Positions 9,471 to 43,515 of a stretch of DNA of 64,000 nt are shown here, in pieces. Numbering within the stretch: position 1 is the stretch's first letter; each line of letters begins with the position of its first letter. A model generated the notes under the pieces. The model was not told the DNA's origin, searched no databases, and saw only the letters and a list, made by a program, of their open reading frames with translations. The DNA is from Gentiana macrophylla. Taxonomy: Eukaryota; Streptophyta; Magnoliopsida; Gentianales; Gentianaceae. A program made the translations under genes and the position numbers. Location: positions 124,001 to 188,000 of the forward strand of contig JAOBSW010000948.1 in assembly GCA_026214975.1 (NCBI GenBank), in the 5' to 3' direction.

Positions 9471-11450
9471 TGACGTGGCCTTTTCTAGTGCTAATACCAT
9501 CCTTAACCGGCGATGGTGTATCGGGTCAAAGCTGTAGTGCTAGTATGGTGAGTCGAGTGTCGAATCCTCAGGGAACTTGGTAATTCTTCTAAGTGTGGTT
9601 AAACACCAAAGAAGTCACATTATTAACTCGATCTAAACCGCAATTTTATAACACGTATCACTACTATTCTACTTAACATAAAATAAATGCGTAATTTAAA
9701 AGTTATTCTAATATAATATATATAGATATATAAATATATATAGATGTACATAAATTGCAAAATATATATATAGATACCAATATATAGAACTAGCCAAAGT
9801 TTATATAATTGATTTATACGATCTTTTCGATGAAGCGGAATGTGCTCGATCTTCCCTTACATATTAAGTCCAATTGAGTAAATGAAACGGTGCACTCACG
9901 AGGTTAACAATTCCTTCTCATACGGGCGTATGAAATTGTCATATGTCATTGTCATCGATTCAATCTCCACAACTGCCCCATGCTAATCTCGGTTAGATGC
10001 GAGCAGTGCGAGTACAAATCTACCCCGGATAAAAGAGGTTATCCATTTGTCGACGGCCGATGTTATTCAAAAGGCTCCGGTTGTCGGCGGATCGATTTAA
10101 CTTTCGGTGTTAGTTTCAATTAAAGCTGTTGATTTTAACATTATTACGATCTCGAGCACAATTTTAACAAGATCCATCTTTCCCAAGACAAATCGCTTCG
10201 GTTTGGAAATAGGATTCCGTAGTCACGCGCCATGACGGCCAATTTTACCCTCCGGTTTTTCTATCTTTTATCTCATATCCTAACTTCTGCGGTCGGTTCA
10301 TCGTTAGGTTATATGGTGCGATTCATCTTGGTTAATTACGTCAATCCGAATATTATCAATACGTTCTGAGAATAGAAAAGATTCAATTAACTCAATTTTA
10401 ATCAATTTTACTTAGACGACATTCATTTACCGAAAAGATCGAAATAAAACAATTACATAACTTTGGCTAGTTATTAGATCTAGCCTAATAACATTATAAA
10501 AGATAAAAAAACAAACATAACAAACATAAATACTTAAGAAATTTTACCCGATTACAAATCATTGAATCGAAGTTTGTATTCTTCCGGATATTACAACGAC
10601 TTCAACAACACCGATCTTCGATAATTTCTCGAGCATTATAACGATACTACTTTATTTATGGCATACGGCCTATATACATACTACTACTACTTAAGAAAAA
10701 GAGGTTAAGGAAATATATTGGTACTCCTCGTGTATGCGCAAAGTCGCTCTTCTTATAGGCAAGATTTCGAGGGCGGATCGATCCGAGAAAGGGCCGGATC
10801 GATCCGGGAATAAAAATCTTATCCCCGAGGATTATTCTCTGCGGACCACATCTTTGGATAATCATTATGTTTCCTCGGATCGATCCGAGGTAAATCCGGA
10901 TTGATCCGGGTAGCTTTTTATTCCATAACTTGATCTGAAACTTGATAAAATCATAACTTGAGATCTGGATCTCCAAATGACATAATTCAAAAAGCGTTGG
11001 AAAGTTCTTGAAAAGATCTATAACTTCCATGAAGGACTCTTCTTCAGAAAATGCCTTTTTGATGGGCCATTTGTTCGTCGAAAATATAATTCGATAATGG
11101 TGTCACGAACCATTGATCCACTTGAATTTTAAATCTCGTGGCACTTCCTTACTTCCTTCAAAAGATACGATCTTACTTCAAAAAGTGTCATCACTCGGGG
11201 TCTTGGTTTACCTAAAATATGCAAATAAAATACCAAAAATACCCACGTAAATCTGACACGACACTCCGGTTATTAACCCGGTACAAAATTTATAACTTTT
11301 ATCACTTTTACTAGATTTTTATAGTATTTAGATTTATTCATAACTATTAATATTTTATAAGATTATCGTTATAATTTCTTATATTTTATATAAAAAAGTC
11401 GATAACGTATATAAAATATCGTAATTTTATCATATAAATGTTATACATCA
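9471..11450 (-). repeat. 3' LTR of element A (1980 bp)
   Basis: Begins TGACGTGGCC and ends TTATACATCA on the plus strand. It carries four copies of the palindrome CGGATCGATCCG: 10774-10785, 10794-10807, 10873-10890 (an 18-bp perfect palindrome) and 10896-10909 (one mismatch). On the minus strand a TATAAG box (10752-10757) follows 17 bp after the array, so the array sits in the U3 promoter. It differs from the partner LTR mostly by small changes at CG and CHG sites. Confidence 0.9.
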
Positions 11451-11482
11451 ACTACTCCCCACTTAGCTCTTTGATCGTCATA
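11451..11482 (-). promoter_or_regulatory. Polypurine tract of element A
   Basis: The plus strand reads ACTACTCCCCACTTAGC, then a TTTGATCGTC block, directly against the LTR edge. On the minus strand this is the purine-rich primer for plus-strand synthesis. The same block borders the 3' LTRs of B1, B2 and E. Confidence 0.75.
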
Positions 11483-14150
11483 AAGCAAAATAAGCGATAA
11501 TATATAAAAATTACAATAAAAATGATATACTTGGTAGATTAAATTTTAAGTTAGTAAAATATCATTTCAATATTATAAATATATTAATTATATCCTTCTT
11601 AGAAATTAACAAGATAAAAAGTGTATATAACTTAGATAAATTATCTATCAAATATCATTCAAATGAAATTTCACATAATCTACTCAATAAATATAATTAA
11701 AATTCTAGAATTATTCTCCTATCTCAACTTATATGAAATATTTGGAATCAAAGACTAAGTCAAGTAGTTGACAAAATGGCTTATACTTTTTAGGCTCAGG
11801 GTGTTGGTTAATCGGAAGGATAGAAAAGAAAATCAAAAGAGAGAAAAAGCAAGTAAATGCGTACTTACACCTTCATAATTTTGATCAAAAATACATCGAT
11901 TAATAACATTACGATATTATTTCACCCTCTTCTTTTGAGATTTTCTCTCTTCTCTTTTTTTTATTTTTTTAAGATTTAAGAACTAAAAGCGTGCGTGTGT
12001 GTAGAAAATCAAATTTACAAGCATTGCTTCATCAAGATTGATCGGAGTAATACTCTTTCGATCGAAAATTACAAGTCCGGTTTCCTTAAACTTGTAATCA
12101 TTCTTGAGATCTTATGATTCGACTTTTTATCGGGAGCTTTTAAACCTCATAGTGATATAGGATATTTCGAGATAACACCCTACTGCACTCAAATCATTGG
12201 TAGCTACAACCGATATTTTTATTTTTAATTTGTCGATCACAGATAAGGAAGATACCTGGTATTTGATTAATTCTGTGTAAATATGGTGCTTCGTTCTTAA
12301 TTCTTTTATAGAATATTAACATATCCGAACTTATTACCAAAATCGACTATCTTGCAAGCGTCATGAGGTAAGATCGAATATACTAATACTTATCTAATTT
12401 TTCCAATCTCAGCATACATCATTCTTAGCTTTTGTGTCATCATCTCCTCTCATAAGACGTACAAACTCGTGGGATTTTTAGGACATGTAGACCAAAATAG
12501 GCTAAGGGTCGGTTATAATCAAAATGGCTATTTCGAGTGAGGTCTTGATCACTCTAATCAAGGCTGTGGTAGGGACAAAAATTAGAAATTTATTTAGGTA
12601 GGCAATTTGGCTATAGTTTATATTTTTGTGGTGCCAAAAAAAATCGTCATCCCTAGTCCAATTCCAAACTCATAATTTGTTTTGAAAAGAAAATTATTCT
12701 AACATTTTATTATAGATATAAGTATATTTACTAAATTTCATAAGAAAGTTACTTGATAATATTTATGTATAGTTACATATACTTAAAATCTTATAAAAAT
12801 CTAAAATTGACATACATAGTATAATTATAATATATCTAATTTACTTCACTTAATTAAAATCTATTCTTACCAATTTATATTATTTTTATTCATATTTATT
12901 ATATACTATCTACTTATTTTTATTCAAGAAAAATTAACTAAGTATTAAGCACTTAAGTATAAATTTATATGAGAAAATTTTAATTTTTTTATTTACTAAC
13001 TTACCTCTACTCCCACTTACGAAGTGGCATCGTCCGATGATGGTGAGTAATAAAAAAAGTAGGTTCGAAAGAAAAAAATTAAAATTTTATACGATTTTGA
13101 TTTTATTGTTTTTCTCAACATATATTATGTTAAAAAATGACATATATATTAAACATTAAGAAAACTATTACAAACTTTAAAGAAAACTTAATTAAAAAGC
13201 GATTAAAAGACTAACTTACGACTACCAACTTAACAACAACAACTTCTAATTGATTTCCAACAACTCATCAAACCGTAGATGAACATCCGGGAATATCTAC
13301 GGAAGTAATCAATCGAGAATCACGAGATGGAAGGATCTCGCCAATTAGTAAACTTCAGGCACTTGATTGATTGGACACAAAGTTGAGAGATAACCAGGCA
13401 AGCGGTAGTGGTCTTCCCCTATTACGCCTCTCATTGCAAAATTAATTGCCGTTTTGAACATCAAAACCCCCAATCAATGTATGCCCCACGGTCAATGCAT
13501 ACAACGGCTGACATCTCATCATCCGTAACCCAAGGAAATCTCAGTTGGATAGGTCCGGGAGTTAATGAAAAGCGTTTCCACGCCGGATGAGGGGTAAAGC
13601 CAAAGTTGAAGAATCATAGTTATGATCAAGCGGTGGAAATACATATTGAAAGGCTTCTGCGATCGATTTACAACATTATAAAATTTCCGAGTTCCCAAAG
13701 AAACTCGAAGTGTGGGTTTTGTTCAAAGGTACATGGTGGAATTTGAAAGATTTGATTTATGATGGTAGCGAAAATGATATAACGATGCCCCTAACAAGTA
13801 ATGAGATGAGGCGAGGTTCTTTGTCGTTATATCGATAAGAGGATGCATAAAAATCTCGACAATTGAAATGTTAATTCTACCTCCGGGAGTCTAATCGCTT
13901 TTTCCATCCGCAACCTCGGATTAGATTTCGTCCCCATCGATCGATTTTTTCTGTATTCAATCCTTTTTCCATCGAGAATAGGAGAATGGGCGAAATTTAG
14001 GCGTCTCGGAACTTCATTATGAAAACACGAGGCATAGCTTTCGGGAACCACACCATCAGCGTATGTGGTTCGTAACTATTAACCGAGGAGAGGAGTGGTT
14101 CGACATTTTATCGATATCTGAAAATAAAGACAAATAGAGGTAAAGAAGGA
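11483..14150 (-). other. Long noncoding 3' region of element A
   Basis: AT-rich and without a convincing coding frame. It contains a second polypurine-like block at about 13007-13045 (CTACTCCCACTTACG followed by CATCGTCCGATGATGG) resembling the true tract. A short frame at 13827-14051 (minus, 74 codons, no recognised domain) lies downstream of a motif array and a TATA box and could be a remnant of a small gene; I cannot name it. Confidence 0.5.
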
Positions 14151-14182
14151 ATGAGCAAAGATGAAGGCTGCAGCTCTTTCCT

Positions 14183-14333
14183 TTTATAAAATGTATCCAT
14201 CAGGTAAAAGTAGGAAAGATCTCCTTTTTGGCGTTTTTGTACTTCCCGGATCGATCCTGAAATGTGCCGGATCGATCCGGCCTCTCAACTTGCAATCCTG
14301 TCAGGTCGGCATACCCACGCCGGATCGATCCGG
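14183..14333 (-). promoter_or_regulatory. Internal palindrome array and TATA box in element A
   Basis: Three copies of the element-specific palindrome occur at 14246-14257 (half-degenerate), 14267-14280 and 14320-14333 (both perfect CCGGATCGATCCGG). On the minus strand they are followed by TTTATAAAAG (14183-14190), repeating the layout of the LTR promoter. It lies about 330 bp past the end of the 3' ORF, so it may start a transcript towards the 3' LTR. Confidence 0.55.
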
Positions 14334-14665
14334 AAATTTACTATTCACGGACAAAGTTGTTTTGGCTTGTAAAATGCCTAGATTTTTTCTAGGTGATACG
14401 TTCTCTTCCTAACTTCGGTACATTTTTATTATGTTATAACGATAAACTTTACTACATGGTGTGTAATAACATAAAATCAAACGAAAGTAAAATAACATAA
14501 AATCGTAATGAAATAAAATCCTACTAAAATAAAATCAAAATAACCTAAAATTGTACGAAAATGAAGTAACATAAAATCGTATGAAAAATAAATTGTTTTC
14601 AATGTCAATAATCATAAAATGGTTGAAAATTAATCCTCCTCATCCCCATCTCGGCGTGGCTCGAA

Positions 14666-16128
14666 CTAGGCATGGCTCGAGGCGGCCGGATCATAAGTCG
14701 ATTCTTGGAATGGATCTTGAAAATGTGTCGACATCCGAACCGAGCTATCTAATCCCATCGAACTCATCTCTCTCGTAACATCTGAAAAAGTGCTTCCCCA
14801 TCCCATCATGGTATGGCCAAATGATCCAAATCCTGCCCAATCAGATGTCGCAGCTGCCGTAATACCTGTCGAAAAATCCCCTACACCACTAGTTTGAAAT
14901 CCGAAAGAATGTGGCATTTGTTGGAAATCTGAGCGAGGTGGCATTGGTGGAATAAAGTCGGGCAAGGTATATGGCTGGGATTGGCAATGCGGAATATCCA
15001 TCTCGGCATAGGTAGGGTTTTGCAGTATATTCATTTGATATATACCTCGCATGCCTTGACGTAAATCTTCAGACCACTGCATATTCCTTTGCGCAAAAAC
15101 AGCCATATTGGCATTGGCACGATGAACATCATAAGCCATGGATTGAAACATGTCGTATGTGATGGTATTTGGAAGTTGAGTTTGAGTTTGACTGGATGAA
15201 GGAGGGACAGTAGTGGATGGAGTAGGTTGAGGTCGTTGGCGGTTAGGGTCCATAAAATCTATTCTTCCTGCCGGCCTAAGTGGTAAACTAGGACCTATAA
15301 GTGTGTCATCCACCATCATCAAATTATCATTTGGGAGCTCAGGGACACCTATCTGGCGACATAAGGAAGAAATAAAACATGGAAAAGACATGTGACTGCC
15401 TGGTTTGGCAGTTGAGACAAATTCTTGGCCCTTCATACATTACCCCGCCTACATCCACGGGTATATCATTGACCATAGCCCAAGCAATACACAGATCCTC
15501 TTTACCAAAAGATGTAAAATGACGAGTAGGGTAAGAGTGTGGCTAATAAAGCGTTTAATAGCTCTCATATCCCGTATACATTTTCCATAGGAAAACTGTT
15601 TTCATGCCCAGGCGGCAAGTGGGATCTAACTCATTACAGGCTAGTGAAACAATATAGTCAAAGTCTGAGCTCATCTAAATTCCATACAATTATAATAATC
15701 CTCATTTTACGGTATATCGGGGATACCATAAATAGCATTTATAATCCGAGGATCAAACGGTACCGTCCTAGTTCTTAGGTTGTGAGGTTAACTCACCATT
15801 TTCGTAGCATTATGAGTTGCTACCAGAGAATAAAATTCAGCTACTAAGGTTGTGTTAATTTCACCCTCCCTTAAACTAGCTAACTCCAACCAACATCGTT
15901 TTCAAAAATTTCCTTCACCTCCTTCCCAATTATTTGAAATCTAAGCCCCTCTATTGCAACTAAACACTTTCCAAACTTATTTTTCAACGCTTCTTAGCCT
16001 GCAGCAGACGCGGTTCTTTCAAAACTAACATTCAACTCTGCTTCCGTTAAAGGCCTAGTCTCTATAAGCGGGATTTGGGTTGGGATATTAGGTTTACGTT
16101 TTTTAGTGACTTTTGACGATTCGGCCAT
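14666..16128 (-). pseudogene. Element A 3' ORF (putative plant transposon protein type), frame-broken
   Basis: Starts at 16128 with MAESSKVTKKRKPN, a basic possible nuclear-localisation stretch, runs to 15994, and resumes in another frame from about 15436 to 14666. The C-terminal 256 codons are rich in Pro, Gln, Met and Ser. Position (downstream of integrase, before the 3' LTR) and composition fit the extra ORF of Athila elements, whose function is unknown. The middle part (15440-15990) is shattered by indels. The two visible ends are supported; family assignment is partly from position. Confidence 0.65.
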
Positions 16129-16549: not shown

Positions 16550-16585
16550 CGGATCGATCCGGAGTTAGGTCGGATCGATCCGACC
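16550..16585 (-). promoter_or_regulatory. Internal palindrome pair upstream of the element A 3' ORF
   Basis: CGGATCGATCCG at 16550-16561 and the perfect 18-bp palindrome GGTCGGATCGATCCGACC at 16568-16585. They lie about 420 bp upstream (minus) of the ATG of the 3' ORF. The same motif is in the LTR promoter. No clear TATA box is visible between here and the ATG. The rest of 16130-17320 is AT-rich noncoding sequence. Confidence 0.6.
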
Positions 16586-23530: not shown

Positions 23531-25502
23531 GACGTGGCCTTTTCTAGTGCTAATACGGTCCTTAACCGACAAATGTATCGGGTCAAAGCTTGTAGTGCTA
23601 GTATGGTGAGTCGATTGTGTGTCGAATCCTCGAGGGAACTTGGTAATTCTTCTAAGTGTGGTTAAACACCAAAGAAGTCATTATTAACTCGATCTAAACC
23701 GCAATTTTATAACACAGATCACTACTATTCTACTTAATATAAAATAAATGCGTAATTTAAAAGTTATTCTAATATAATATATATAGATATATAAATATAT
23801 ATAGATGTACATAAATTGCAAAATATATATATAAATATAAATATATAGATACCAATATATAGAACTAGCCAAAGTTTATATAATTGATTTATACGATCTT
23901 TTCGAAGAGCGGAATGTGCTCGATCTTCCCTTACATATTAAGTCCAATTGAGTAAATGAAACGGTGCACTCTCGAGGTTAACAATTCCTTCTCACACGGC
24001 GTATGAAATTGTCATATGTCATTGTCATCAGTTCAATCTCCACAACTGCCCCATGCTAATCTCGGTTAGTCCACGAGTAGTGCAGTACAAATCTACCCGG
24101 ATAAAAGAGGTTATTCCATTTGTCGACGGCCGATGTTATTCAAAAGGCTCCGATTGTCGAGCGGATCGATTTAACTTTCGGTGTTAGTTTCAATTAAAGC
24201 TGTTGATTTTAACATTATTACGATCTCGAGCACAATTTTAACAAGATCCATCTTTCCCAAGACAAATCGCTTCGGTTAGAAATAGGATTCCGTAGTGCCG
24301 CCAAGACGGCCAATTTTACCCTCGGTTTTTCTATCTTTTATCTCATATCCTAACTTCTCTGGTCAGTTCATCGTTAGGTTATATGGTGCGATTCATCTTG
24401 GTTAATTACGTCAATCCGAATATTATCAATACGTTACAGAATAGAAAAAGATTCAATTAACTCAATTTTAATCAATTTTACTTAGACAACATTCATTTAC
24501 CGAAAAGATCGAAATAAAACAATTACATAACTTTGGCTAGTTATTAGATCTAGCCTAATAACATTATAAAAAGATAAAAAACAAACATAACAAACATAAA
24601 TACTTAAGAAATTTTACCCGATTACAACTGTTGAATCAGAAGCTGTATTCTTCCGGATATTACAACGACTTCAACAACACTGATCTTCTGATAATTTCTC
24701 GAGCATTATAACGATACTAATTTATTTATGGCATAAGGCCTATATACATACTACTACTACTTAAGAAAAAGAGGTTAAGAAAATATATTGGTACTCCTCG
24801 TGTATCGCAAAGTTCGCTTTCTTCTTATAGGCAAGATTTCCAGGGCGGATCGATCCGGGAATAAAAATCTTATCCCCGTGATTATTTCTGCGGGACCACA
24901 TCTTTGGATAATCATTATGTTTCCTCGGATCGATCCGAGGTAAATCGGATTGATCCGGGTAGCTTTTTATTCCATAACTTGATCTGAAACTTGATAAAAT
25001 CATAACTTGAGCTCTGGATCTCCAAATGACATAATTCAAAAAGCGTTGGAAAGTTCTTGAAAAGATCTATAACTTCCATGAAGGACTCTTCTTCAGAAAA
25101 TGCCTTTTTGATGGGCCATTTGTTCGTCGAAAATATAATTCGATAATGGTGTCACGAACCATTGATCCACTTGAATTTTAAATCTCGTGGCACTTCCTTA
25201 CTTCCTTCAAAAGATACGATCTTACTTCAAAAAGTGTCGTCACTCGGGGTCTTGGTTTACCTAAAATCTGCAAATAAAATACCAAAAATACCCACGTAAA
25301 TCTGACACGACACTCCGGTTATTAACCCGGTACAAAATTTATAACTTTTTATCACTTTTACTAGATTTTTATAGTATTTAGATTTATTCATAACTATTAA
25401 TATTTTATAAGATTATCGTTATAATTTCTTATATTTTATATAAAAAGAGTCGATAACGTATATAAAATATCGTAATTTTTATCATATAAATGTTATACAT
25501 CA
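23531..25502 (-). repeat. 5' LTR of element A (about 1972 bp)
   Basis: Homologous end to end with 9471-11450. The inner edge reads GACGTGGCC beside the primer-binding site; the outer edge TTATACATCA is followed by the GTACA target duplication. It has three palindromes (24846-24858, 24923-24940, 24946-24958) against four in the partner LTR; the first two appear to have collapsed into one. Confidence 0.9.
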
Positions 25503-26226
25503 GTACATCACAGTATAGTAAATGAGAGTCAAGGTCGATCCCACAGAGACAATGCAACTTATACATATAAACGATTCTAACCTAATTAAGAAGCAACATA
25601 GAGGCGGTCATTGACCAACAATAACACAAAAAAAGAAAACAAATCTGGTATACCTCCCCCTCTCCTCACCGATCTACTAACTTGGATTAGTTAATCGTTA
25701 TGTTTACTTTCCCACATAATTTCCTTAAATTAATTGTGAGCATTTTATCATATTTATCAGCTATGGGTGCAATTCCTACTCCTATCTACTCTGACAATGG
25801 AAGTAGACAATCTATACGCAAGCTACCCTCCTTAATTGGTCCGTAATAGCCCATATGCATAAAGAACTAGAACTGCCGATATTGAGCGTTACCTCATACC
25901 GCTAACCCTCCTGAGCGGTGGCCGACACTAACCAAAGACGCGTTCACAGGGTCCATCAAGACTATGTCCTAATTAACACTTCACTTGCGGTCCTTCATGT
26001 TAATTTACGAATTACGAATACTAGATTGGCCAGACCTATTACTCGTTTTAATTATTTCTGCCGATCCACGTAGTTGTAGTGAATCCCAGTTTAGGTTTTC
26101 TAAAATATGCCTCGGTAAACCGGTATAGACCGCCGGGTTACCGAGGGCGGCTTTTCTTAATTTCTGGATCTACATTGCTCAATACGATTAAAATAAGTAA
26201 ATTATGGGGTTGTTAAACATGCAGAT

Positions 26227-27981: not shown

Positions 27982-28663
27982 CAGATTAACTAAAACACAT
28001 AAATACGAACAGATCTACCATATTGAAGACGATAAAGGAATGTTCAAAGCTTCATACCTTCAACAATGGAGATCTAGCTTGATCTACTCAAGCTAGAGAT
28101 GATGGAAGAAGGGAGGAAACCAAAAGAAACTCTCCAAAACTCAAGAAAACTTTATTTCATCAAAATATATAATGTATTGATAATAAACTATGAAGACTTA
28201 TGAAAACCTATGCAATAATCTGATAATGCGGCCTTATATAGATACAATGACCGACTTAAGACTCTCTAAAACCCTAACCGACTTAGACGATGCGGCTGAA
28301 TGAATTTTGTGTTGAATAAGTCTCCAGTTTACCGGGCCTAACCCTCGGGTTACCGGGCCTTCTATTCTTCATTATCTTCAGCAGGCTTCCTCTTGGACTT
28401 CAATCACTCAGCCCAATGCATTCCTTTTGGTCCATATCCGTTCTCCAATGCTCCAGTTTTGGTACATCATATAAAATACACAAAACGAGACAAAACAGTA
28501 CCAAAACATCGGGAAAATAGCATGAATGCAGAATTACGATCCTGGAAACACTCACATAGCATTTAACATATATTCCAAGAAATAACGAGCCTATATATCC
28601 TCCCTTGAGCAGAATTTAGGGTAAATGTAGGTACAATTATTGGTACCATTTAGAGTGTCATCA

Positions 28664-28702
28664 ACTACCCCCACTTAGCTTTTGATCGTCCTGAGCAAAA
28701 AG
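28664..28702 (-). promoter_or_regulatory. Polypurine tract of element B2
   Basis: ACTACCCCCACTTAGC followed by TTTTGATCGTCCTGAGCAAAA, directly beside the LTR edge at 28663; it is nearly identical to the blocks beside the LTRs of B1 and E. The 28703-29515 interval is noncoding and homologous to the B1 interior. Confidence 0.75.
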
Positions 28703-29518
28703 GCGAAAAGAAAATAACACTCTGATCAATACACAAGTTAATTAAAAACAACTATGCCTCACAAAGTCAAGATCAAGATCATGCCACTCATATCCATCAG
28801 TAACATATTAAACACTATTCACATCATGAGCCAATGTGTGTGTGCAATAACTTCCACAACCGCTTAGGAATGCAGGCAATCTCACATTACGTCAACCCGT
28901 AGTCGAACTAACCAGTCTTGAACATGTATTTGTTAATTAATTGAGCTAGCAAGGTGGATCGAGAACCGAGCATATATTACTCTTAGGCTCACGTTTATCG
29001 GTCTATGCAAAAGTCGTGCGTCTTACGCTCCATCGACTAAGATATTGCCAAAGAGAATATAGATATATATATTTCAATGCACTTCTCTTTCTTGGCGGGT
29101 GAACTCTCATTGATTTAACTATACTCACGGCCCCACTCATGATAAACTACCGAATCCGAAATTCCTTTGCCTTTCTAAGCGTAAGTGGAACATGATTCGT
29201 GATAAAGCCAGGGTCAACTCCAGTCAAAGCAATATGCTATTGACTACACACCAAGGGAAGTGAGTTATACGTGCTTAAAATGGTGGCTCATAACAGAATA
29301 CGCCCTTAATACGCCATTACTTCAGAAGTGGACACTTTCTCTTACTCGTACAAAGTAAAACAAAGATGAAGTCAATTAACTCGAAAGATCAAAGATATCA
29401 TAATTTTTCAAAATTCTGTCGAAAAGAATCAAAGTCTAAGTGGTGAATCGTTCATCAAAGAGAATCAAGATAATCACGCAATTCATAGAATATAATGCTA
29501 AAAAGCTAAGTGACGTTC

Positions 29519-29560
29519 CTCTACCCCCCACTTAATCGAAACATTGTCCCAAATGTGTAA
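29519..29560 (-). promoter_or_regulatory. Second polypurine-like block of B2
   Basis: CTACCCCCCACTTAATCG followed by AACATTGTCCCAAATG. It resembles the true tract 0.85 kb away but has no LTR next to it. Equivalent blocks occur in A (about 13007), E (about 40768) and the right-edge fragment (about 63650). Confidence 0.6.
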
Positions 29561-29887
29561 GATGAGAAATAAAAAACGAAAAGGAACTTAGCTTCGGTTA
29601 AGCATGGAACCAAAGAAGAAACGGATCATCGGATAAATCATCGGGCACATATAAGTAGTCCATGAGAATCTGCGCTAAGTAACTCAAGAAAACCAAGAAG
29701 AATAGTGGTGACAACAGCTGTATAACAAGAGTGCGGCAGTAAAAGAGAAAATAAATAACTCCAAAACAGTTTAAGCCGACAAAATCATTATAGAAAATTA
29801 TTCTGCTACATTAACTAAGTAGGAAAAGAAAATAAAATAAAAACAAGAAAAATGGAAAACAACAATAAGAAGAAATAAAAGCTAGTC

Positions 29888-30981
29888 CTAATCAGAATCA
29901 CCATCACAGCCGACTCCATGCTCAAAACCGGGAGGTGGTGCAGAACTTGAGGCGGCGGCGGCTGAAGATGATGCTCTACGATGTGGGGCAGTCCTAGGTG
30001 GCGGGGTAGAGGAAGTAATGCCAAAGAAGTCAATAATCCTATCCGTCTTGCTATGTAGACTCGCAATTTCTCGCGAGTGCTCCTCAAGCAAGGCTCTCTG
30101 AGTCTTCGGTGCACCATGCACCGGAGTACGCTCTCTCTCTGCTCTAACCCGTCTCTGAACTCTCGAAACTGACTATGAACTGAGCTGTGGCTCAGGATCT
30201 TCTCAATCATCACTGACAAGCATCTTCACCTCGGCCTCAAGAGCAAACATATCAATCATCGGCCCGTAAGGTAGCAGCTCTCGCTCAGAAGTGGCGGCAA
30301 GCTCATGAATACGGCTATGCATCAGTAAACCGATGTTGATAGGGGCACCCATCTCTAGATAGAAATCAACTCTGCCCTCGAAGTGGTGACAGAAACAGTG
30401 TGCTTCGTCGGAAGAAGGCGAGCACAAACAAATTGATTGACCATCTTCCGGCCCCAAGATAAATCTTTCTCTAGGAAGATGGTGAGGGCTCCCGCAGGAT
30501 TGTGCTTCCATTGCACCCCTAAGAAATCAGCAACCATATCCATCCTCTCAAAATCGGCAATGTTGCTCGAGGATGTGTACTCATCCGGGCCCACAGGTGG
30601 ATTTCTAACCCCAAAATGCTCGTTGATCCTCTCAATAGAGAAATCAACCTTGATACCGCAAACCATAGCAAATGTGGCTCCGGGGTTATGCGAAACGTAA
30701 GCATAAAACTCTCTTACCACCGTGGCATTGAATCTTGCCGGTGCCTCAGCCATGTCCAGTAAATCTTGTGGTTGTAGGGCCTCCGGCAATATCGACCCGC
30801 AGTCGTCCAAATCTACCCCTCGTTCTCGAGCAACCGGCCTTGCGTTCCAATGGCCTCGGAATAACTCGTAAATCTCTAAAGAATGGAATTGTTCAACCCC
30901 GTCGATTAAGGGATTAACATCTCTATACACACTCTGATAACCACTTGGCCGAACTGCTGAACGTTGATGCTTAGGACCCAT
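29888..30981 (-). pseudogene. Element B2 3' ORF (putative plant transposon protein), frameshifted
   Basis: Starts at 30981 with MGPKHQRSAVRPSGY. Residues 60-185 (RFNATVVREFYAYVS, SIERINEHFGVRN, RMDMVADFLGVQW, RLLPTKHTVSVTTSRAELI) match the domain named putative plant transposon protein in Athila-type elements; its role is unknown. Near 30360 the frame shifts and continues as FYLEMGAPINIGLLMHSRIHE; a further shift near 30120 leads to an Ala/Pro/Ser-rich tail ending at 29888 (FEHGVGCDGDSD). The text is well conserved despite the breaks. Confidence 0.85.
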
Positions 30982-31028
30982 CCTGAATGAGTACAGAACC
31001 TGATACAGAAGCTTTTTCTGGAAAATAA

Positions 31029-31064
31029 CCCTCGGTAAACCGAAGGTAGGGTTCGGTTTACCGG
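31029..31064 (-). promoter_or_regulatory. Inverted-repeat motif pair just upstream of the B2 3' ORF
   Basis: TCGGTAAACCGA (31032-31043, perfect 5+2+5) and TCGGTTTACCGG (31053-31064) lie 50-80 bp upstream of the ATG at 30981. The same motif family occurs in the B LTRs upstream of their TATA boxes. Confidence 0.65.
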
Positions 31065-31342
31065 TCTGAATTTTTTCTTTCAGGACTGTGCCTCTGATGA
31101 TAGAAGAAGAATTTTGGGCACTTCACCGTTGCAGCAGCACTTCAGAACAGCAACAAGGTTGAAGGAGGTGGTTTTTAAGGTTTGGAAAATGGAAGGATAT
31201 GGTTTGGCTATGGTGGTGATAGTGGTGGTGATGGTAGTGGTGATGGTGGCCAGATTTTAGAAAGGAGGAAGAAATGAGAGAAGTTTGGTGAATGAAAGAG
31301 ATGAAAATGATAAGAATGAAGATAATGGTGATGAAGGGGTGG

Positions 31343-31642
31343 TTTAAATAGGAATAATGGAGTGAATGTGGATGGTTTAGTGAGATTGTGGGTAGAGAAG
31401 TTATTAGGGTGAGGGATTTGAGGAGGTGATTGATGGGATTGAGGTGGAGTTATGGTGGAGTGTGGGAAAGGATTAAAAATTTGAAAATAGGGAAAATGGT
31501 TCGGTTTCTGCTGACTGACCGTATTTGGTGCAACGTGTGTCCTCAACGTGTCTCTAAAAATTCAGCTTTATGCACTGACGTTCAGAAATCTGAAAATCAA
31601 GCCTCGGTAACCCGGAGGTTACCCTCAAGATACCGGGGGTAT
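31343..31642 (-). promoter_or_regulatory. Internal promoter-like region of B2 with motif array and TATA box
   Basis: CCTCGGTAACCCGG (31602-31615), GGTTACC (31618 on) and ATACCGGGGGTAT (31630-31642) form the array. On the minus strand a TATTTAAACC box follows at 31343-31350, about 360 bp upstream of the 3' ORF start. 31065-31340 is a Pro/Ser/His-coding-looking but low-complexity leader; I do not call a gene there. Confidence 0.5.
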
Positions 31643-31961
31643 CTTTTCCCCAGATTTTTTATCTGCCTTTTCTGCACTTCTTACTTAACCTTTGTGCTCA
31701 ATTCTGACCTCAAATTGACTACCCTTCCATTCTTCAATCGTTATTTCCGACTCAAAACCTAACCTACTTCACTAGAATCCGCAACGAGGTAAAAAAAAAA
31801 ACCTTTCCACAACCATTCGGTTTCAAGCCTAAATTTGTGGTAGGATGAAAAAAAGCTCGTCCCTTCATCTGGCTACTTTTATTCAATCCTAAACTACCTA
31901 AGGGTTTGAAGAGATAGTTCTGAGTTTATAGTCGCCAGCTTGACTTTCTCCAGATCTCCGA

Positions 31962-33010
31962 TCAATCTAGTGTTGGAGCCTTAACTCGCCAAACTTTCGC
32001 TCCAGAGGCTTGTACCTTCACAGAACCTTTTTGAGCTCTCTTCCTAGCACGCCTTTCCCTTTTAGCTTCCGTACTAGGTCTGCCTCTGCGTCGAGATTTA
32101 AACCTTAAACTCAATGACTCCACGTTTTCTACTTTCAGCTCGACTCGTTCACTATGAAACACAGAAGGACTGGCTTTCGTGAGCATCTTGTCGTGGTCCT
32201 TATCTTCTTTCTCTCTCTGCATTAATCTTATAAACTCTTGATCAACGGTTTCTATGACAACCTCTCTATTCTTATGCCCCTCAATCTCCAAAATCTCTAC
32301 CTTCCCTGAAGCATATTTCATCTTACAACTCTCCGGTCGGTTTTCTAGGGGTTCTAAGATCCTAAAAGATACAGCATCATTATTCATCCTTAGAGTAATC
32401 TCCCCCTTATCAAAATCCATAACCGCCCTGCTCGTTGCTAAGAAAGGTCGTCCTAAGAGAACTGAGGCACTAGGGCCTCAGGTACGTCTATGACCGTGAA
32501 GTCAATAGGATACGTGAACCCTCCTGCCTTAATTGTACATTTCTTAAGAAAACCAGTAGGCATGTCTCTGGTTCTATCTATGAAGGTCATGGTCCTGGTT
32601 TGATTCATCACGACCGGAAGTTTGATCTTTGACATAGGGAAAAATGAAGAATATTGCAACTCGAGCCAGAGTCGTAGAGACCTAATCTTACGGATATTCC
32701 ATTGACAGAAATTGGGAGTCTGAACGTGCCAGGGTCTCCTAACTTCACCACGATATCTAAGTCTGGGTAATCCTCAGGATTAGAAAACATCGTGTTAGGA
32801 TCCTCTTCAGGATCATCAGAATCATAATGAAGATGATATATCAATTAATTCGCAAGGAAACTCACCCGGACGATACGTGCTGTACTCCTTCAGGTCATCT
32901 TCAGGCTCTTGCTTGATTGATTTCTCCTTTTTCTCCAACCGTTTCTTTATAGTCTCATAATGCTTCCGTGCTTCAGTTCCGGGATACATGGAAATTGGTG
33001 TGATGTTCAA
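31962..33010 (-). pseudogene. Element B2 gag/protease fragment
   Basis: Reading from 33010: NITPISMYPGTEARKHYE, an acidic linker, then the protease at 32608-32844 with LGDPGTFRLPISVNG and the active-site-like LYDSGSSCNIL. It continues in shifted frames to LATSRAVMDFDKGEITLRM (about 32400), the conserved protease tail, and ends in a strongly basic stretch (RRRGRPSTEAKRERRARK) with a stop at 31962. The upstream part is interrupted by LTR C1. The protease tail is not followed by RT. Confidence 0.75.
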
Positions 33011-33013: not shown

Positions 33014-34942
33014 TGTTCTACGCGGGAACGCAACGGAATTTCAAAAACTTATTTCCTATCGACCCAAGATCGACTTCGTTTTATCAATAAACAACTAAGT
33101 AGTAGACGGTGGTTACCTTGGTTGATCTAAAAGATCGATGCTTTGACCGTCTAAGGAGAGTAGCGATGCACGGAGCCGCCCAAGCGTTCGGCCTCTACCG
33201 CTAGTCCATACGAATAACCCGCCGGAATCTACCATTGGATTGCTACTAGAAAAATCAGGTTGCTAGACCGGCCTTTTCTCTCTCCCAAAACTCTCTCTAA
33301 GGAGCTCTCTATTTTCACAAGAACTATTAGCTCTTGGAGTTATGATGTACAAAAGAACTTGACACCCACCTCTTATTTATAGTGAGAGGGGCGCCCCAAC
33401 TAGAGTGGAGAGGAAGAAAACCTTTTACTAGTAAAATAAGGAAAATATAATTGATTGATTTATCTCATTTAATTTAATATGCTATATTAAATATTTCAAA
33501 TATATTGTCAATATCTTATATTGACTATATTTATCTTATTACCATAAATCAATTTACACATGTATATATATCAAATATATATATTACAAATATAAATCTA
33601 TACATATATATTTATCACAATTGTGAACATGCATATCTTATATGCAATTCATGTGTGGTGAACAAATATATTCATATGTTAATATCTTATATTAATGTAT
33701 GGTAATATCATTAATTAAATTGCACAATCCAAGTGTATCATAATACACTTATTATTGGTGCCACCTTTAGCCTATTATTGACATCCGGAATATTCTTTAA
33801 TTAATATAATTAATATATTGTATTATATTTATTCATAATAAATAAATACCACCATATTAATTTACCACTATAACCTTTATAGTACGAGATAAACTTTCCT
33901 TATTTGGTTATCAACTATAACCACATTTTTTATCTGGCTAGATGTTCTTATGCGTGTGACCCGATAGGCTTCCGAATGTGTTGGCCGTAGACACAAAGTG
34001 CAAATTACAAAAATGACCTTCATGCCTAACGATCACGGGATAGCGTCTAGCAACACACCGTGACCCCAATCATCGAAAGAGTCAAATGCAATGACTACTA
34101 CCTTTCATGTGAAACAGTTACCGTGTAACTTACAATCCTATCGCTGTAATAATATCCATACGGTCGTTAGTCGAGTGTCAAAACATCAACGACCGTATCT
34201 TATAATCTGGATATCATGCTCTCTCGAAGTAACTCATTTACTTCCACTTTGCAAAGATTCACGAGAGTAAGGCATTCCTTATAAGAAGGCCCATTCAGAT
34301 ATTCACCCCTACTAATAGGGAACGCGATTCCCAGACGACCAAACATGTATACTCCGCATGCTTCAGTATCACACCCAATCACTACCGCATGATCACCCCG
34401 TGGCTAGGGGAAACCTCAATAGTGTCAAAGTATGACAATCCACACCGTGATGCCATGAAGACTCCGGTCATAAGGATAATTACACAACCGCCACATAGTG
34501 TGACACTTAACCGTGTAAGTGGGTCAGTCTAACATACGCATTCTCTAATACACGTCCATGTACAGTCCAAGTGTCTCCACACTTCGATAGACGAGATCTA
34601 TCCCTACCCTTAAAGACAGAAGACATCTAATACGTGCTAGCCTGTTCATACTATCAATGCCCTGTTTAATAATACATCAGCCTAGAGACATTTAACTATC
34701 AAACTTATTAAAGTGATTAGAGATCTCATCAACCATAATCGCCTATCATGGTTTCTCTATCACAGTTTAACACTAAGGACGTTATCATATAACAATTCAT
34801 GATTGGTTCTTTAAAAGAACATATATATATATGACAACAGAAAAGCCATTTAATATATGTATAACCATAAAGAAATAGTAGAAATGATCCAACCCGGTCG
34901 GATCATGTCCAACCCGATTGGGTTTAGGACACTATTCCAATA
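33014..34942 (-). mobile_element. LTR C1, probable copia solo LTR (1.93 kb)
   Basis: Plus-strand left edge TGTTCTACG; right edge near TATTCCAATA (minus TATTGGAATAGTGTCC, a common copia LTR start). The B2 coding sequence reads up to both edges (GLLLKI on one side, LNITPI on the other), so the whole stretch is an insertion. No clean target duplication is visible (AAGAT versus ATAAT). A 1.1-kb part is repeated in reverse orientation at 55949-57041. No internal coding sequence is seen. Confidence 0.75.
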
Positions 34943-36058: not shown

Positions 36059-36061
<3 letters not shown>

Positions 36062-36128: not shown

Positions 36129-36129
<1 letters not shown>

Positions 36130-36432
36130 TAATCAAAAAAACCCGATGCGATGATGCACGGGGATAACAATATAGAACATAAAAAATTATAATATATTTG
36201 TGTGAAGAACGATAATAATAAGTTAGAGATGGAATGTCGTATCATAGAAAACTTGGATAATTTATCCACACATTGCATTGGTTATCTTAAGAAAAAAAAA
36301 TTATTTTAAATGAATAAATCATGAAAAAAAAGATTAGTTTTGACCCCAAAGGAAAAAACAACATATATAAGAAACACGTTCCTACCACAGACTCCTACCG
36401 TAGCCTCCCTCCTACGCATCTTAATTGAAGGA

Positions 36433-38123: not shown

Positions 38124-38225
38124 ATCTCCCACTTGCACGAAATGACAAGTAACGATTGTTTTTAGAGCACACCCTTTCTCATCTTATTCACAACACTCTC
38201 CCACTTGCTCTAAAAGCATATGAGA
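38124..38225 (-). mobile_element. Interior stub of copia element D with a duplicated purine tract
   Basis: Contains the polypurine tract at 38124-38138 and a second similar word (CTCTCCCACTTGCTC, 38200-38214). It stops where the LTR of element E starts, so E or a later rearrangement removed the rest of D. Confidence 0.6.
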
Positions 38226-39732
38226 TGTCCCGGATTTATCTAATGCGAATAAACAAGTAATAATATTTATAAACCGGTTAACCTCAAGTATAAGGATCGT
38301 AGTGTAGAGGCTATGCCGGGTCGATCTTACGGGGAACTAGACGAATGGGAATCCTAGCTTTTGTTTTTTAACTAACTATTTGTCACGATTACTAACCTAA
38401 ACAAATATGCAGAAAATAACTAGACAGAGGAGATTAATCCAATGCTAGGAGAGATTTGAAAGCGATAAAGATAAACTAAAAGTGCAGGAAAGTAAATTAA
38501 CTAATCTAAACTAAGCTACGAGGATTGTAAATCAAGTTTATAAAAGACAAACGAGGATTGATCCACCTATCAACATGCATTGATCTCCTATCTCGATTTT
38601 ACGTGGTATTTACTGAGGTTGTGATTCACCTTCTCTAAACATGAAATCCTAATTCCTTAGATATTTCGTCTATTAACCTAGTATCTTCCAATGCTAGTTT
38701 AACGCGTTTAAAAGACCAAAGATGTCAACTTTAATGTTTAACCTAGTGATCGAACCTATTAACTTCCGTTACTATAGATTCAAAGACTATTCCTATTCAT
38801 GGTGATCTAAAGGTTTAACATGACTCCCGTCAAGCATAAACACAATCAAAAACATGCAATCTTCCGATATAATGCACTAAAAACATGAGTAAAGCATGAA
38901 TAAGAAACAACCATAAATAAATACTCACGGTAATAATCGAGATAAGCAGACCAATTCACGTTGATGGCTTCACAACTCGTTTGATGGAGGTTTTAGCCTC
39001 TCGAACATCCTCAAGAACTCAAAGAATGTATAAAAACAGACATAAAAAGCAACCTAAACTAACCTAGATCTAATTTGCATAAAAGTAAAGGAAAAGATGT
39101 AAAAGCGCAGCCTTAGCCGCTTTAGGTATTAGGTTTTTGTGTGTCGAAATTCATCTCCTTGGAGTGCGAAAATAGCGGTATTTATAGAAGATTGAGTCGG
39201 TCTCGCATTTGAGTCGGGCGGACGGACGAGCGTTCAGGATGGCGGACGCTCGTTCAGTATCTTGAACTCCCCTCAGACGCCCGTTCAATATCAGTTCAAA
39301 CTCTCTGAATCACTTTTAGCACCTTGGACGCTCGTTCGATATTTCAGACGCTCGTTCGATATGGACGGAGCATGGACGTTCGTTCAGCATGACTTGAATG
39401 CGATTTTTGCATGTTTATCTCTTTTCTTCTCTCCACTCGATCATTATCTCTTCCTTAAACCTTTATAGCTCGAAATTTATCTCTTTTGATCATCATTTGA
39501 GCACAATAATCATACCTATAACACACGGAAAACATCGCAAACTGTAATAAAGTCCAATTAATTATAATTCACGATGAAAACACATAATTTATTCAATATT
39601 GAGATTAAGTCCTTAAAAACCTAGTATGCTCAATATTTCCATATAAAAGGCCGTTTATTATGCAATTAATCCAATTAAGAGGAAAATACCGTAAAATATA
39701 TCATAATAAAACATAGATTTTCACCCTTAACA
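38226..39732 (-). repeat. 3' LTR of element E
   Basis: TGTCCCGG to CCTTAACA. It contains six 12-bp GRACG-NN-CGTTC motifs between about 39210 and 39392, followed on the minus strand by TATAAATA (39179-39186). The right edge is bordered by the polypurine complement ACTCCCCCACACTTATC. Confidence 0.9.
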
Positions 39733-39772
39733 ACTCCCCCACACTTATCTTTTGCTCGTCCCGAGCAAAACA
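39733..39772 (-). promoter_or_regulatory. Polypurine tract of element E
   Basis: ACTCCCCCACACTTATC followed by TTTTGCTCGTCCCGAGCAAAA next to the LTR edge. A related block without an LTR lies at 40768-40803 (CCCTCCCCCACACTTAAA, then CAACATGTCCTCATG). 39773-41330 is otherwise noncoding as far as I can see. Confidence 0.75.
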
Positions 39773-41332
39773 AAACGAAAATTAGGCTCGAGAAAGGAAA
39801 GCATGCATCTAAACGAATATAACATACATCCAATAACTCAGATGTCCACCGGTGTGTGAGTGCATAGCCATAGGGAACTTCCACTAGATCCAAACTTGAC
39901 CAACTCAAGCAAAACTAGCTATTACCCCCTCGCAGAAGAGTAATAAATGACACTCATAAGGTGCACCCTACAAACGTGACATATCCCGAAAAGGATGATC
40001 GAATATATCTAGGGCCTTTCTGAAATACTCAGAGGATAATCCCTACATCATATCCATCGGTTTATACTGGGGATAAGATTAACGATAACTAAGTCTTATA
40101 TTCATTATAGTACCGATTCTTTAGTTAATTTAACTTATTTCACTTTAAACACACATTAGAAGAAGCTATTGCCCTCATAGCAGAATAGGACATTTCGAGA
40201 TAATCCCCCACCTTACTCAAATCATAAGGCAGCTTTTTCTAACTGTCGTGAGCTTTTAGTCATCATAGTGGAATAGGACATACGTGGTATACCCTACCTC
40301 ACTCAAATCATCGACTAGCTTCCGACACACCCTTATTAACCAACTATTAACTTATCTTTTTAATTGACATTAGCCCCGTGTTACTTATCACATTCAAACG
40401 TCTAGATATTCACAGTATAACGTACTACGGAACTAAATACAAACTATCATAAATCTCACGATATGCACGTAGCACTAAGCACATGACTTATAAGATAATC
40501 AAAAATTACTAATCCAAAACGGGGTATAACTTTATAAAAATAGCTCATCATTCACTATGGCTCGTGAAATGTAATTCTTGGTGAAACAACCAACTTACCA
40601 AACATATGAAATATCGCATAGATGACTGCAAAAACAACGAACTTCACACTGAATTGCCTACTCGGGACAAAATAAAAACACAAGTGTAGGAAAATTTTTG
40701 GAAAATTGAGCATATTTTTGCATAATAAACAAACTAACGAAGTAATTAAACGTATACGCATCGAACTATCCCCTCCCCCACACTTAAAAACTCAACATGT
40801 CCTCATGTGGTGCAGAAAGAAAGATGAGAAGAAACTTAGCTGCATTCGCGTAGAAAACCGAGCCGTTGGTCAGGCTGGAGCATGAAAAGGCCAACACTCG
40901 CAAAAAGCGCGGAAAAATGTCCCAAAATTAACTCAAGCGGATCTCGACAAAAACGATTGCTGCAAAATTCGAGAAACAGAAAACTCGGGGGAAACGGGGG
41001 ATAATACGGCAGTAGAGATAATAAATCAAAACGGAAGAAAAAGAAAAGATCACCGATAAATATGTCAACACAAGTCAAAGAACGAGAAACTAGAAGGTAC
41101 AAGAACCATGAAAAGTAACCAAAAGTAAAGTAACAAAATGTATAGGTACAGCCAAATTCAATGAAATGTATCAAAAAGTGCAATAACAACCGGAAAAAAA
41201 AAAACAGAAACTCAAGGCAGTCCCGGAGCATCAGCTGGAGAAGGATCTGAAGAAGGAGCATCACCACGATCACGATGCGATGTGGTCCGTGCAGGCAACA
41301 AGAGAGCGGCGGAGTGCCCGGCCCACCTCTCT

Positions 41333-42689
41333 CTACCCAGTAGGAACTCTCTCAGTCCTCGGATCCGCTGAAGTCTCCTCATCATCAGACTCGGGTTTTT
41401 CCTCCATCTTGACCACCTCGGCTATTACCCTCTCTATCTGCTCGGAGAAGACATAATCCATATTACTCGCATTGAATACCCTCCGATCTCTCGGTTGCCT
41501 TCCATCAACTAAACATTCCAAAACCGATAAGATATTATCCTGGCCATCCCGGATATCACTCAACATCGCCCTCAAACTATGAGCCATACTATGCCGAGTA
41601 ATCTCGGAAGAAGATAATCCAGAAAGAACTGAGGCTTGAGGCGGTGCCGATGTGGACCCAGGCTCGTAAAGCGGAACGGCCTCTCTCTACGAATAGGGGG
41701 TAACTCTTCGTGGTGGTCTCGATGTATACTCAAAGAACCCCAAAGATCCAAACATAAGCGATGTATCAAATGGGGCACTATCAAACTCCGGGTAGATACG
41801 CCCGATTTGCCGAACGTCATCAAACAAAGCTTGCCCAACATCAACATTCAACCCGAAAACCAACGCATACAACATCCCAAGATCAGCGATATAGAAATGT
41901 GTGAGATTATTCTTAGGAATCAACCGACTCTGGATAAACCGACGAGAGACCCGCCAATCCTCACCCAAGTCGTGGTGATTAACTCCTTCCTATCACCATT
42001 CGGTCTCAACACCCATGCCACATCGGACAAACTTTCAATCGCAGCTCCTCCATCGGATCCTTACCTCCTCATTTTGCCGTCTAGCGATCTCTCCTTGTAA
42101 TCCAAGCCGCTAAACGCCGGCAACTTATATTTCGGTTGATCACCTTGGCGGAAAAGGCACTTTGACACCTCGAACCATCACAAAACCGTCATCCAAATCC
42201 GTCTCGAGAACAATTCGCATAGAACTCTCTCACTATAGAATCATTGACCGGGGTAGGAGGATAATCCTTAGTGTAGGCACTATGAGCTCGTGGATTGACG
42301 AATCGACGGGGCATAGCAAGAGGGGCAACATTCTTAACTTTCTTCTTAGGGGGTGCATGTGTAGCTTCGGGTTCAGCCTCCTCCCCAACGACATTCTCCT
42401 CTCCACCCTCAACTCTAGATGGCTTGGCTTTAGAGGACTCCTCACCACGTTTACCTCGAGGCATCCTATTCAGGGGGATAGCATCATCATCCTCAGTATC
42501 GGAGTTGGAGGAAGAATCATCCCGTAAATTGGTCCTAGGCTGTTGAGATGTTCGGGGAGGTTGATCCCTAAGGACTACTCCTCTGTTAGGGTCCAATTGG
42601 GATGGATCAAACTCAGGACGCTTGCGTTTACCGCTCTCTCTAGCTACATCTTTACCATAACGCTTCACAACTTCCTTCTGACGCACCAT
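41333..42689 (-). pseudogene. Element E 3' ORF (putative plant transposon protein), frameshifted
   Basis: Starts at 42689 (MVRQKEVVKRYGKDV), with a charged, Pro-rich N-terminal 110 residues containing PPKKKVKN, a nuclear-localisation-like stretch, then VNDSIVREFYANCSRDGFG. After frameshifts it resumes near 41968 (RRFIQSRLIPKNNLTHFYIA, DVGQALFDDVRQIG) and ends at 41333 with a coiled, acidic tail. It corresponds to the 3' ORFs of A and B2. As read it is broken at least twice. Confidence 0.8.
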
Positions 42690-43243
42690 TGTCCACTTAT
42701 AACTAAACTAAACCATTCACACAAATGGTTACCCGTTTATCGTCCAAATCGGGATTTCAACAAAGCATACCACCAACAACCACCACATACGCACCACATC
42801 ATCATCACAACCAGAATTCGGGGAAGAAAAAGGGCAACAAACAGAAAAGAGAACAGTATGAGTGCATATTCAAGAAAATGAGTCGAGCCGAAGATCGAAC
42901 TCACAAAAACTTGAATGGAAACGAGAAAAGTTGCTATAGACTTACCCAACGCTATGCAAGGATGATGATCGAATGGATTGGAAGCCCAGAAACACCAAGA
43001 TTGGCACCCAAAATTGGAAATTTAGTCCAAATGGCCGCACTGAAAAATCTCTGATTCTTCAAATTCCGTTGATTGTTGGAGGGAATGGACTAGATAAATG
43101 AAAAGAAGGTGCAAGGACCGTTCTTTTGCAACAAGAATCGTTGAATTTGGTTCAGAAACGAAGATTTGAGGTTTGGAGAAGGGGAAAAGTCGGTTTCTCT
43201 TTTGAAAATCGCAGAAGAAATGAGGGTTCACGCCTAGAACAGA

Positions 43244-43515
43244 TATATATAGGCCCAGAGTGGACGCTCGTCCATCCTTACGGACGGGCGTTCACTAGTA
43301 ACCGCATGAACTGGACGGGCGTCCAAAAAGTCAGACGCTCGTCCATGGGGCAATTTTACATACAGGATAGGAGGGATGTTTGCAGACGGGCGTCCACCAT
43401 TTTGGACGAACGTCCATAAAAACAAGCAATATGGACGGGCGTTCATTATATTGGACGAACGTCCATAAAAACAGTAGTCCGGACGGGCGTTCATATTCAT
43501 GAACGGGCGTCCAGT
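43244..43515 (-). promoter_or_regulatory. Internal promoter-like region of element E: ten inverted-repeat motifs and a TATA box
   Basis: Ten copies of a 12-bp motif with consensus GGACG-NN-CGTCC/TTC fall between 43261 and 43515 (for example GGACGCTCGTCC, GGACGAACGTCC). On the minus strand the array ends 10 bp before TATATATAT (43244-43252), about 555 bp upstream of the 3' ORF ATG. The LTR has the same motifs ahead of its own TATA box, so this looks like a second promoter built on the same sites. Confidence 0.7.

Follow-up and report, generated by a model that had tools for sequence, protein, structure and literature searches.

A stretch of 64,000 nucleotides from the Gentiana macrophylla genome (contig JAOBSW010000948.1, positions 124,001 to 188,000, handled here as G000:C105:124001-188000 and called the window) holds several long terminal repeat (LTR) retrotransposons, all on the minus strand, of which those named A, B and E carry short palindromes both in their LTRs and beside the genes near their 3' ends. 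The genome amounts to 1.79 Gb in 1,264 contigs. Elements A and E share the gene order gag, protease (PR), reverse transcriptase (RT)/RNaseH, integrase (IN), 3' gene. RT before IN is the order of Ty3/gypsy elements and IN before RT that of Ty1/copia elements; Athila-type Ty3/gypsy elements combine the gypsy order with LTRs of 1.5-2 kb and an extra open reading frame (ORF) between pol and the 3' LTR. All three features are found in A and E, and B is too broken to be judged. The name Athila, taken over from an earlier label, is putative for these elements. Membership in the Sireviruses, a copia group with IN before RT, does not fit A and E, where RT precedes IN. Element B (28700-32500) consists of a protease (31965-32477), then an array of palindromes, then a gene matching PF20167; neither RT nor IN was detected between the protease and that gene, and for this reason the copy may be non-autonomous with its 3' gene kept.

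The words of A, B and E had been described in an earlier note on this DNA, and they were confirmed at their places (Table 1). Counts in the window were compared with those in 20 dinucleotide shuffles, and A and E stand clearly above them. The A word, CGGAT-NN-ATCCG, has 11 exact sites against a shuffle mean of 0.00, or 12 against 0.90 if one mismatch is tolerated, and the exact sites lie in the two LTRs and in two internal arrays. For the E word, GGACG-NN-CGTCC, the count at this tolerance is 16 against 0.20, with ten sites in the internal array of E. The B word, TCGGT-NN-ACCGA, is the weakest in the window alone, with five sites at the same tolerance against 0.55, two of which (30322 and 44697) fall outside the B arrays. 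Genome-wide, the A word occurs at 15,938 places, as against 26 for a reversed control, i.e. the pattern read backwards, which has the same composition and is itself palindromic.

The main regularity, overlooked in the earlier note, is that the palindromes are paired at a near-constant spacing of about two helix turns. Their centres lie about 20-22 bp apart: 21 bp (once 20) in A, 21 in B and 20 in E. Across the genome, pairs with a spacer of 1-30 bp number 6,545 for the A word, 7,582 for the E word and 13,435 for TCGGT-NN-ACCGA, the last probably contributed mostly by family C, a relative of B; the reversed controls give 0, 0 and 0. Spacings of 13-42 bp were tallied for 50 pairs among the matches listed for each word, these being the first of contig C1 and including related copies and overlapping runs. 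Among these listed pairs, A peaks at 21 bp (32 pairs, with 3 at 19, 9 at 20 and 6 at 22), the TCGGT word at 22 (47, with 2 at 23 and 1 at 24) and E at 20 (33, with 3 at 21, 3 at 23, 1 at 24, 6 at 28, 2 at 32 and 2 at 39). A finder blind to the words, run on the window and loci L001-L022, placed 63 of 75 pairs at 20-22 bp within the spacing range 13-40, and 23 of 35 once the A words were removed, in a sample biased by the choice of L001-L018 around the first A-word places. A further 45 pairs lay at 41-80 bp and clustered at 48-54 (21 pairs) and 68-80 (23 pairs), which are probably the distances between neighbouring pairs. Shuffled sequences gave 2.0 pairs per replicate over 13-80 bp and none at 20-22 bp in five replicates.

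Table 1. Palindrome arrays, 3' genes, LTRs and TATA-like boxes of elements A, B and E (window positions)
Feature	Position	Strand	Remark
Element A, two CGGAT-NN-ATCCG pairs in 3' LTR, spacing 21 and 21	10774..10908	(-)	
Element A, array preceding ORF2: a pair at spacing 21 plus an additional palindrome	14247..14332	(-)	
Element A, palindrome pair upstream of ORF1, spacing 21	16550..16582	(-)	
Family B LTR pair, left copy, degenerate TCGGT-NN-ACCGA type, spacing ~21	8301..8333	(-)	by eye
Family B LTR pair, spacing ~21	26112..26144	(-)	first member by motif count; degenerate second by eye
Family B LTR pair, degenerate	28325..28358	(-)	by eye
Family B pair ~50 bp upstream of 3' gene ATG, spacing 21	31032..31064	(-)	
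Family B distal array, degenerate	31602..31642	(-)	by eye
Element E LTR array, GGACG-NN-CGTCC type, within-pair spacing 20	39224..39385	(-)	
Element E internal array, five pairs, spacing 20 each	43262..43512	(-)	
Element A ORF2 (second 3' gene), PF20167-like, frame broken	13274..13990	(-)	tblastn 7.9e-10; relative L002:5897-6745 E 1.4e-21
Element A ORF1 (first 3' gene), PF20167-like, frame broken	14669..16113	(-)	relative L013:8481-9332 E 1.5e-26
Family B 3' gene, PF20167, frame broken	30209..31122	(-)	Pfam E 1.9e-16 for 30358-31122
Element E 3' gene, PF20167-like, frame broken	41273..42707	(-)	tblastn 2e-90 to PF20167 locus L030
Element A 3' LTR	9472..11450	(-)	94.3% identity to 23531-25502
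Element A 5' LTR (CGGAT palindromes at 24846-24957, three in all)	23531..25502	(-)	
Element E 3' LTR	38226..39732	(-)	82.2% identity to 50411-51918
Element E 5' LTR	50411..51918	(-)	
TATA-like box TATAAG, 17 bp downstream of A 3' LTR pairs	10752..10757	(-)	
TATA box TATAAAAG, following the A ORF2 array and preceding the ATG	14181..14188	(-)	
TATA box TATAAATA, 38 bp downstream of E LTR array	39179..39186	(-)	
TATA box TATATATA, 11 bp downstream of E internal array	43244..43251	(-)	

These properties bear on whether the arrays have a function at all. A selfish, mutational origin, in which functionless units duplicate by slippage, would suit the variation in site number between the A LTRs (four in the 3' LTR, three in the 5' LTR) and the runs of three palindromes at 22 bp in family C. 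It is highly improbable, however, in that the A spacers vary in sequence from pair to pair at near-constant length, the same word stands at two or three separate places per element, and the arms are conserved above their flanks across diverged subfamilies. In alignments of four A subfamilies, the conserved positions are 36 of 41 in the arms as against 112 of 237 in the rest of the LTR region (P 5e-7), 29 of 42 against 100 of 283 at the ORF2 array (P 4e-5) and 19 of 20 against 296 of 589 at the ORF1 array (P 3e-5), a comparison somewhat biased towards the arms because the word columns were defined from word-bearing sequences. Relatives of A that have little or no coding sequence retain an LTR pair followed by a TATA-like box.

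The same geometry bears on the idea of an action by way of structure or small RNA, in which transcribed palindrome clusters would form hairpins that feed or decoy host silencing. Palindrome clusters of maize Sireviruses are small-RNA hotspots (Bousios 2016, as related in the accessible parts of PMC10760457 and PMC5311732), which may nevertheless be a consequence and not a purpose. A loop would hardly fit into a single 12-bp unit, and a separation of about two turns would, to judge from the pair spacing, be a property of duplex DNA and not of hairpins; we find this explanation quite improbable. In the 15 E sites the two centre bases are free (A3 C5 T1 G6, then G7 T6 A2) and the arms hold, except at column 11 (T8 C7) and, less so, column 1 (G12 A3); as the arms had served to select the sites, it is the free centre that is informative. 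By its form, a free 2-bp centre between two arms is the mark of a dimer site, and as far as form goes the earlier proposal of dimer binding sites stands.

Several distinct words were found in addition to those of A, B and E. The B word is shared with family C and the E word with L030; TGGTG-NN-CACCA occurs in L029 and loosely in L023, CCGGT-N4-ACCGG (loose) in L024, CCGGCG-TA-CGCCGG in L033 and TGGCG-NN-CGCCA in L034, and further pair words are held by L008, L011 and L017. A CGG-CCG core is present in the words of A, B/C, L024 and L033 and in none of those of E/L030, L029 and L034. The claim that words are unrelated between families does not always hold, as B and C share their arms. This sharing was considered as a failure of family specificity, a view dropped on the ground that the B and C proteins are sisters in the protein tree; as sisters, they suggest that B and C may be one old word group. 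In L011, a relative of A, the word is shifted towards CGGAC-CG-GTCCG in both LTR-like copies (1730-1762 and 7409-7441), possibly a word switch.

The earlier note had also proposed that LTR and internal region of one element share their word, and this was borne out beyond swapped elements in five families, represented by one element each. In this comparison the half-site was taken from the internal region only and sought in the LTRs with up to one mismatch; L023, L024, L029 and L033, whose LTRs are absent from the sample, and L026, which has no word, stood outside it. Own LTRs hold 16 sites in total as compared with a permutation mean of 4.8, and only two of the 120 permutations reach 16, namely the identity and the exchange of B with C, whose arms are equal. 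Strays are single sites (the A word in the LTRs of L028, of family C, and L030, of the E type, and the E word in that of L031, of family C), and the own counts of B and L034 are one site each (four and three at two mismatches).

The 3' ORFs of these elements fit PF20167 (Pfam Transposase_32). Against a cut-off of 45 bits, the B gene scores 60.9 and relatives of A ORF1 and A ORF2 score 93.8 and 77.6; the broken ORF pieces of E and A in the window fall below it, at 13.4 and 11.7 bits. Since a second PF20167-like gene, missed in the earlier note, follows ORF1 in element A, the array between the two is itself upstream of a gene. This tandem plan, with a pair before ORF1 and an array before ORF2, is common to the window copy, L002, L010 and L013, and L033 repeats it with a different word, having one pair ahead of ORF1 and two ahead of ORF2 (3515-4393). 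A further tandem family is represented by L024, which in the sense direction has an ORF1-like stretch (5-708), an array and ORF2 (1428-2369). In a database search beyond this genome, the B ORF found no relatives and the A1 alignment led to one potato protein, which when used as query returned itself and one further Solanum protein.

PF20167 matches gave 17,504 candidate places in the genome, of which 150 were scored and 12 loci, hand-picked from the best-scoring list for varied match length, were examined. With strict settings, nine of the 12 have a palindrome pair at 19-23 bp, as against a shuffle mean of 0.05 loci and 0, 2, 1 and 0 loci in other 5-bp spacing bins. Five of the nine belong to family C, so that the nine represent five word groups. 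The pair is upstream of the gene match in six of the 12 (L025, L028, L030, L031, L032 and L033), and in the remaining three pair-bearing loci its place is the LTR or the 3' side. A finder tolerating two mismatches was positive at 12 of 12 loci and was set aside; it also found a mean of 1.75 loci in shuffles and 3-8 loci in other bins, and because of this noise only the strict count is used. At both scored places within the first 3.7 Mb of contig C1 (G000:C1:705400 and 910786), a TCGGT pair precedes the match by 244 bp.

The placement of many arrays is promoter-like, as the earlier note had suggested. Among 27 arrays, a TATA-like box lies within 120 bp downstream in 18 and upstream in eight, a count that is moderate evidence because the motif set is loose, the background AT-rich, some boxes TA runs and some arrays related; the arrays were hand-picked and include one single palindrome (L018) and related copies. 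The LTR arrays stand upstream of a TATA-like box in A, E and C, at 17, 38 and 101 bp, respectively, and no such box was detected downstream of the B array at 26112 or for L034. Among the 12 LTR copies of A that were aligned, ten have TATAAA as this box, and the two exceptions are the window's own. The earlier description needs correcting for the internal arrays: a box within 120 bp follows those of E and A ORF2, and not that of A ORF1 or the distal array of B, where TATTTAAA lies about 250 bp beyond. Downstream of the ORF2 array, TATAAA is present in all four aligned A copies (59 bp away in the window), and L030, like E, has TATATATA 11 bp downstream of its internal array. A ORF1, which has no TATA-like box there, is preceded by a pyrimidine-rich leader and a putative 5'-leader intron (AG-GTAAC in all four A copies, AG-GTAAT in L033), with TAG abutting the ATG or separated from it by one base; such an intron would be expected of a separate ORF1 mRNA.

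The layout is real, frequent in the sample, strongly non-random and regulatory in appearance, and from it we infer a mechanism on sequence grounds. In our judgement the chances are evenly balanced that the arrays are family-specific operator or activator sites for a dimeric factor, located both at the LTR promoter and beside the PF20167 genes of the 3' region. Each palindrome of 10-16 bp would be the site of one protein dimer, and a pair set about 20-22 bp apart, i.e. two DNA turns and hence on the same face, would form one unit for two dimers or a tetramer. As such a unit stands in both locations, one factor could switch genomic RNA and 3'-gene mRNAs together. The factor would most likely be made by the element itself, with the PF20167 protein as first candidate, and an element-made factor would create a feedback switch like that of foamy-virus Tas with its LTR and internal promoters.

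The alternative that host transcription factors bind these dimer sites, each family having adopted a different one and the internal copy giving the 3' gene an LTR-like control, fits the same promoter-like anatomy. In the PLACE database, the plant sites to which Bousios et al. matched the palindromes of Sireviruses were mainly stress-related (2010; accessible text of PMC2829016). Furthermore, LTR pairs persist in relatives in which no PF20167 gene was detected. Against this, the arm pairs in this one genome number at least six and keep nearly one spacing, and many host factors with the same geometry would be needed; we consider the host alternative unlikely, if worth serious attention.

The protein tree, built from 13 PF20167 proteins, can be read in two ways. 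Proteins with equal words group together twice (B with C, at 33% identity, and L023 with L029), but within the ORF1 clade, as within the ORF2 clade, several words occur. This pattern fits a factor and a word that change together, and it fits equally well common descent with words changing under any factor. L026, which has no word, stands beside L030, whose branch is long and whose placement is unsure.

A number of observations count against element-made regulation of LTR and 3' gene through these arrays. The ORF1 and ORF2 proteins of A fall in different clades and share one word. At L008, L011 and L015-L016, each with two LTR-like copies and an interior, the LTR pairs are kept and no PF20167 gene was detected between them, which trans-activation or a host factor would explain equally well. 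The arrays of L023 and L024 emerge only under looser settings or by eye, and near the PF20167 gene of L026 there is no array (the sole pair of that locus, at ~6170, is of another kind). In L024, L029 and L034, arrays also occur 3' of the gene. The ATG in B and C is preceded, at about 50 bp, by a pair that is downstream of TATTTAAA. Nine of the 27 arrays have no downstream TATA-like box, and three of the 18 downstream boxes (L012, L015 and L017) are TA runs. Finally, an AlphaFold model of the B ORF with two Solanum sequences reached a mean predicted local distance difference test (pLDDT) score of 36.7 and was left unused; relatives were too few for a usable fold prediction.

The closest precedent is the set of repeated palindromic motifs of the Sireviruses, found in the LTR and upstream of the envelope gene (ENV). 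As described by Bousios et al. (2010), in the accessible text of PMC2829016, these palindromes are element-specific, with many LTR copies shortly upstream of the TATA box; extra copies stand upstream of ENV, and such linker copies are absent from the four elements that lack ENV. The authors regarded this layout as support for an internal ENV promoter, itself not conclusively identified, and reported the motif to be absent from classic elements. The gentian arrays resemble this arrangement in their palindromes, in the several LTR copies upstream of a TATA box (A, E and C) and in the additional copies upstream of the 3' gene (A, B and E, and strict pairs at six of 12 loci). They differ in the gypsy-like pol order of their hosts, in their PF20167-like 3' genes, in the lack of a general CGG-CCG core (E has GGACG/CGTCC and L023/L029 TGGTG/CACCA) and in the pair spacing of about 20-22 bp, which is the constant part here and goes unmentioned for Sireviruses in the accessible text of PMC2829016. 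New relative to the Sireviruses are the gypsy-order hosts, the pair spacing and the PF20167 link, for which priority is not claimed. Titles and abstract openings of the Athila literature, in a search that left most subscription literature outside, contained no description of a palindrome, LTR and env-promoter layout, and the PF20167 literature under the name 'putative plant transposon protein' consists, by title, of association studies only.

Other systems offer partial parallels. The Tas protein of foamy viruses is encoded in the 3' part. It is one element-encoded regulator acting on both an LTR promoter and an internal promoter; the likeness is an analogy without any link in sequence, and binding in the gentian elements is putative. 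The VANC proteins of VANDAL transposons suggest another role, in which an element-made factor would be mainly anti-silencing, or else an autorepressor, and not a promoter activator. VANC proteins bind short family-specific motifs that are dense in the non-coding parts of their own element, and their specificity differs between families, as do the words here (accessible text of PMC5735166); the ATG-proximal pairs of B and C are, for their part, placed like operators. VANDALs are, however, DNA transposons with tandem motifs in one orientation, for which binding and demethylation are proven (same source), and the present elements, which lie outside the VANDAL group of MULE transposons, are LTR retrotransposons with palindromic pairs whose function is predicted. 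Many of the arrays are moreover near TATA-like boxes, and a chiefly anti-silencing or autorepressive role seems improbable. Retand and Grande elements likewise have an extra gene between pol and the 3' LTR, whose product TRP28 was judged probably DNA-binding, but TRP28/PF04195 is antisense there, whereas PF20167 is in the sense orientation here (accessible text of PMC11963269).

A bolder proposal, to which we hold only tentatively, is that PF20167 represents a large class of sequence-specific regulators encoded by retrotransposons. The protein of each family would read its own palindrome, in the form of paired dimers two helix turns apart, both on the LTR promoter and on the promoters of its own one or two genes, so that the many families of one genome would have separate, non-crossing feedback switches built on one grammar. 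The function of the 3' ORF in plant retrotransposons of the env class was without experimental proof according to the accessible text of PMC2829016. Were the proposal true, the 'envelope-like' ORF would be a transactivator or anti-silencer and not an envelope, plant genomes would contain many regulatory circuits made by the elements themselves and running in parallel, and the words would mark which element controls which, non-autonomous passengers included. With a family word beside the ORF and in the LTR, at near-fixed spacing, the role of the 3' ORF is open to a direct and cheap binding test.

Some further features of the elements may be recorded. In E, a partial copy of the LTR array region lies just inside the 5' LTR, at 50064-50350 (91% to 51163-51454). 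The 3' LTR of B looks split by about 1.8 kb of other sequence (26228-27990) with a poly-C run near its end. Palindromes have been reported as insertion targets of LTR elements (accessible text of PMC6911290), and insertion into palindromes is a conceivable source of the arrays. Pairs of another kind, with a spacing of 20, occur at 34892-34923 in the window and at ~6166-6200 (sense) in L026; both apparently belong to another element and neither has a PF20167 link. An inverted pair of another repeat lies at 33027-34192 and 55947-57015 (79-86% identical). In L025, L028 and L031 (sense, ~2850 and 3790) a second polypurine-tract-like stretch, AAGTGGGG, is present internally, before the one at the 3' LTR, and L026 and L034 likewise carry an extra internal stretch of this type; extra polypurine tracts are on record for Athila4 and Calypso (accessible text of PMC2829016).

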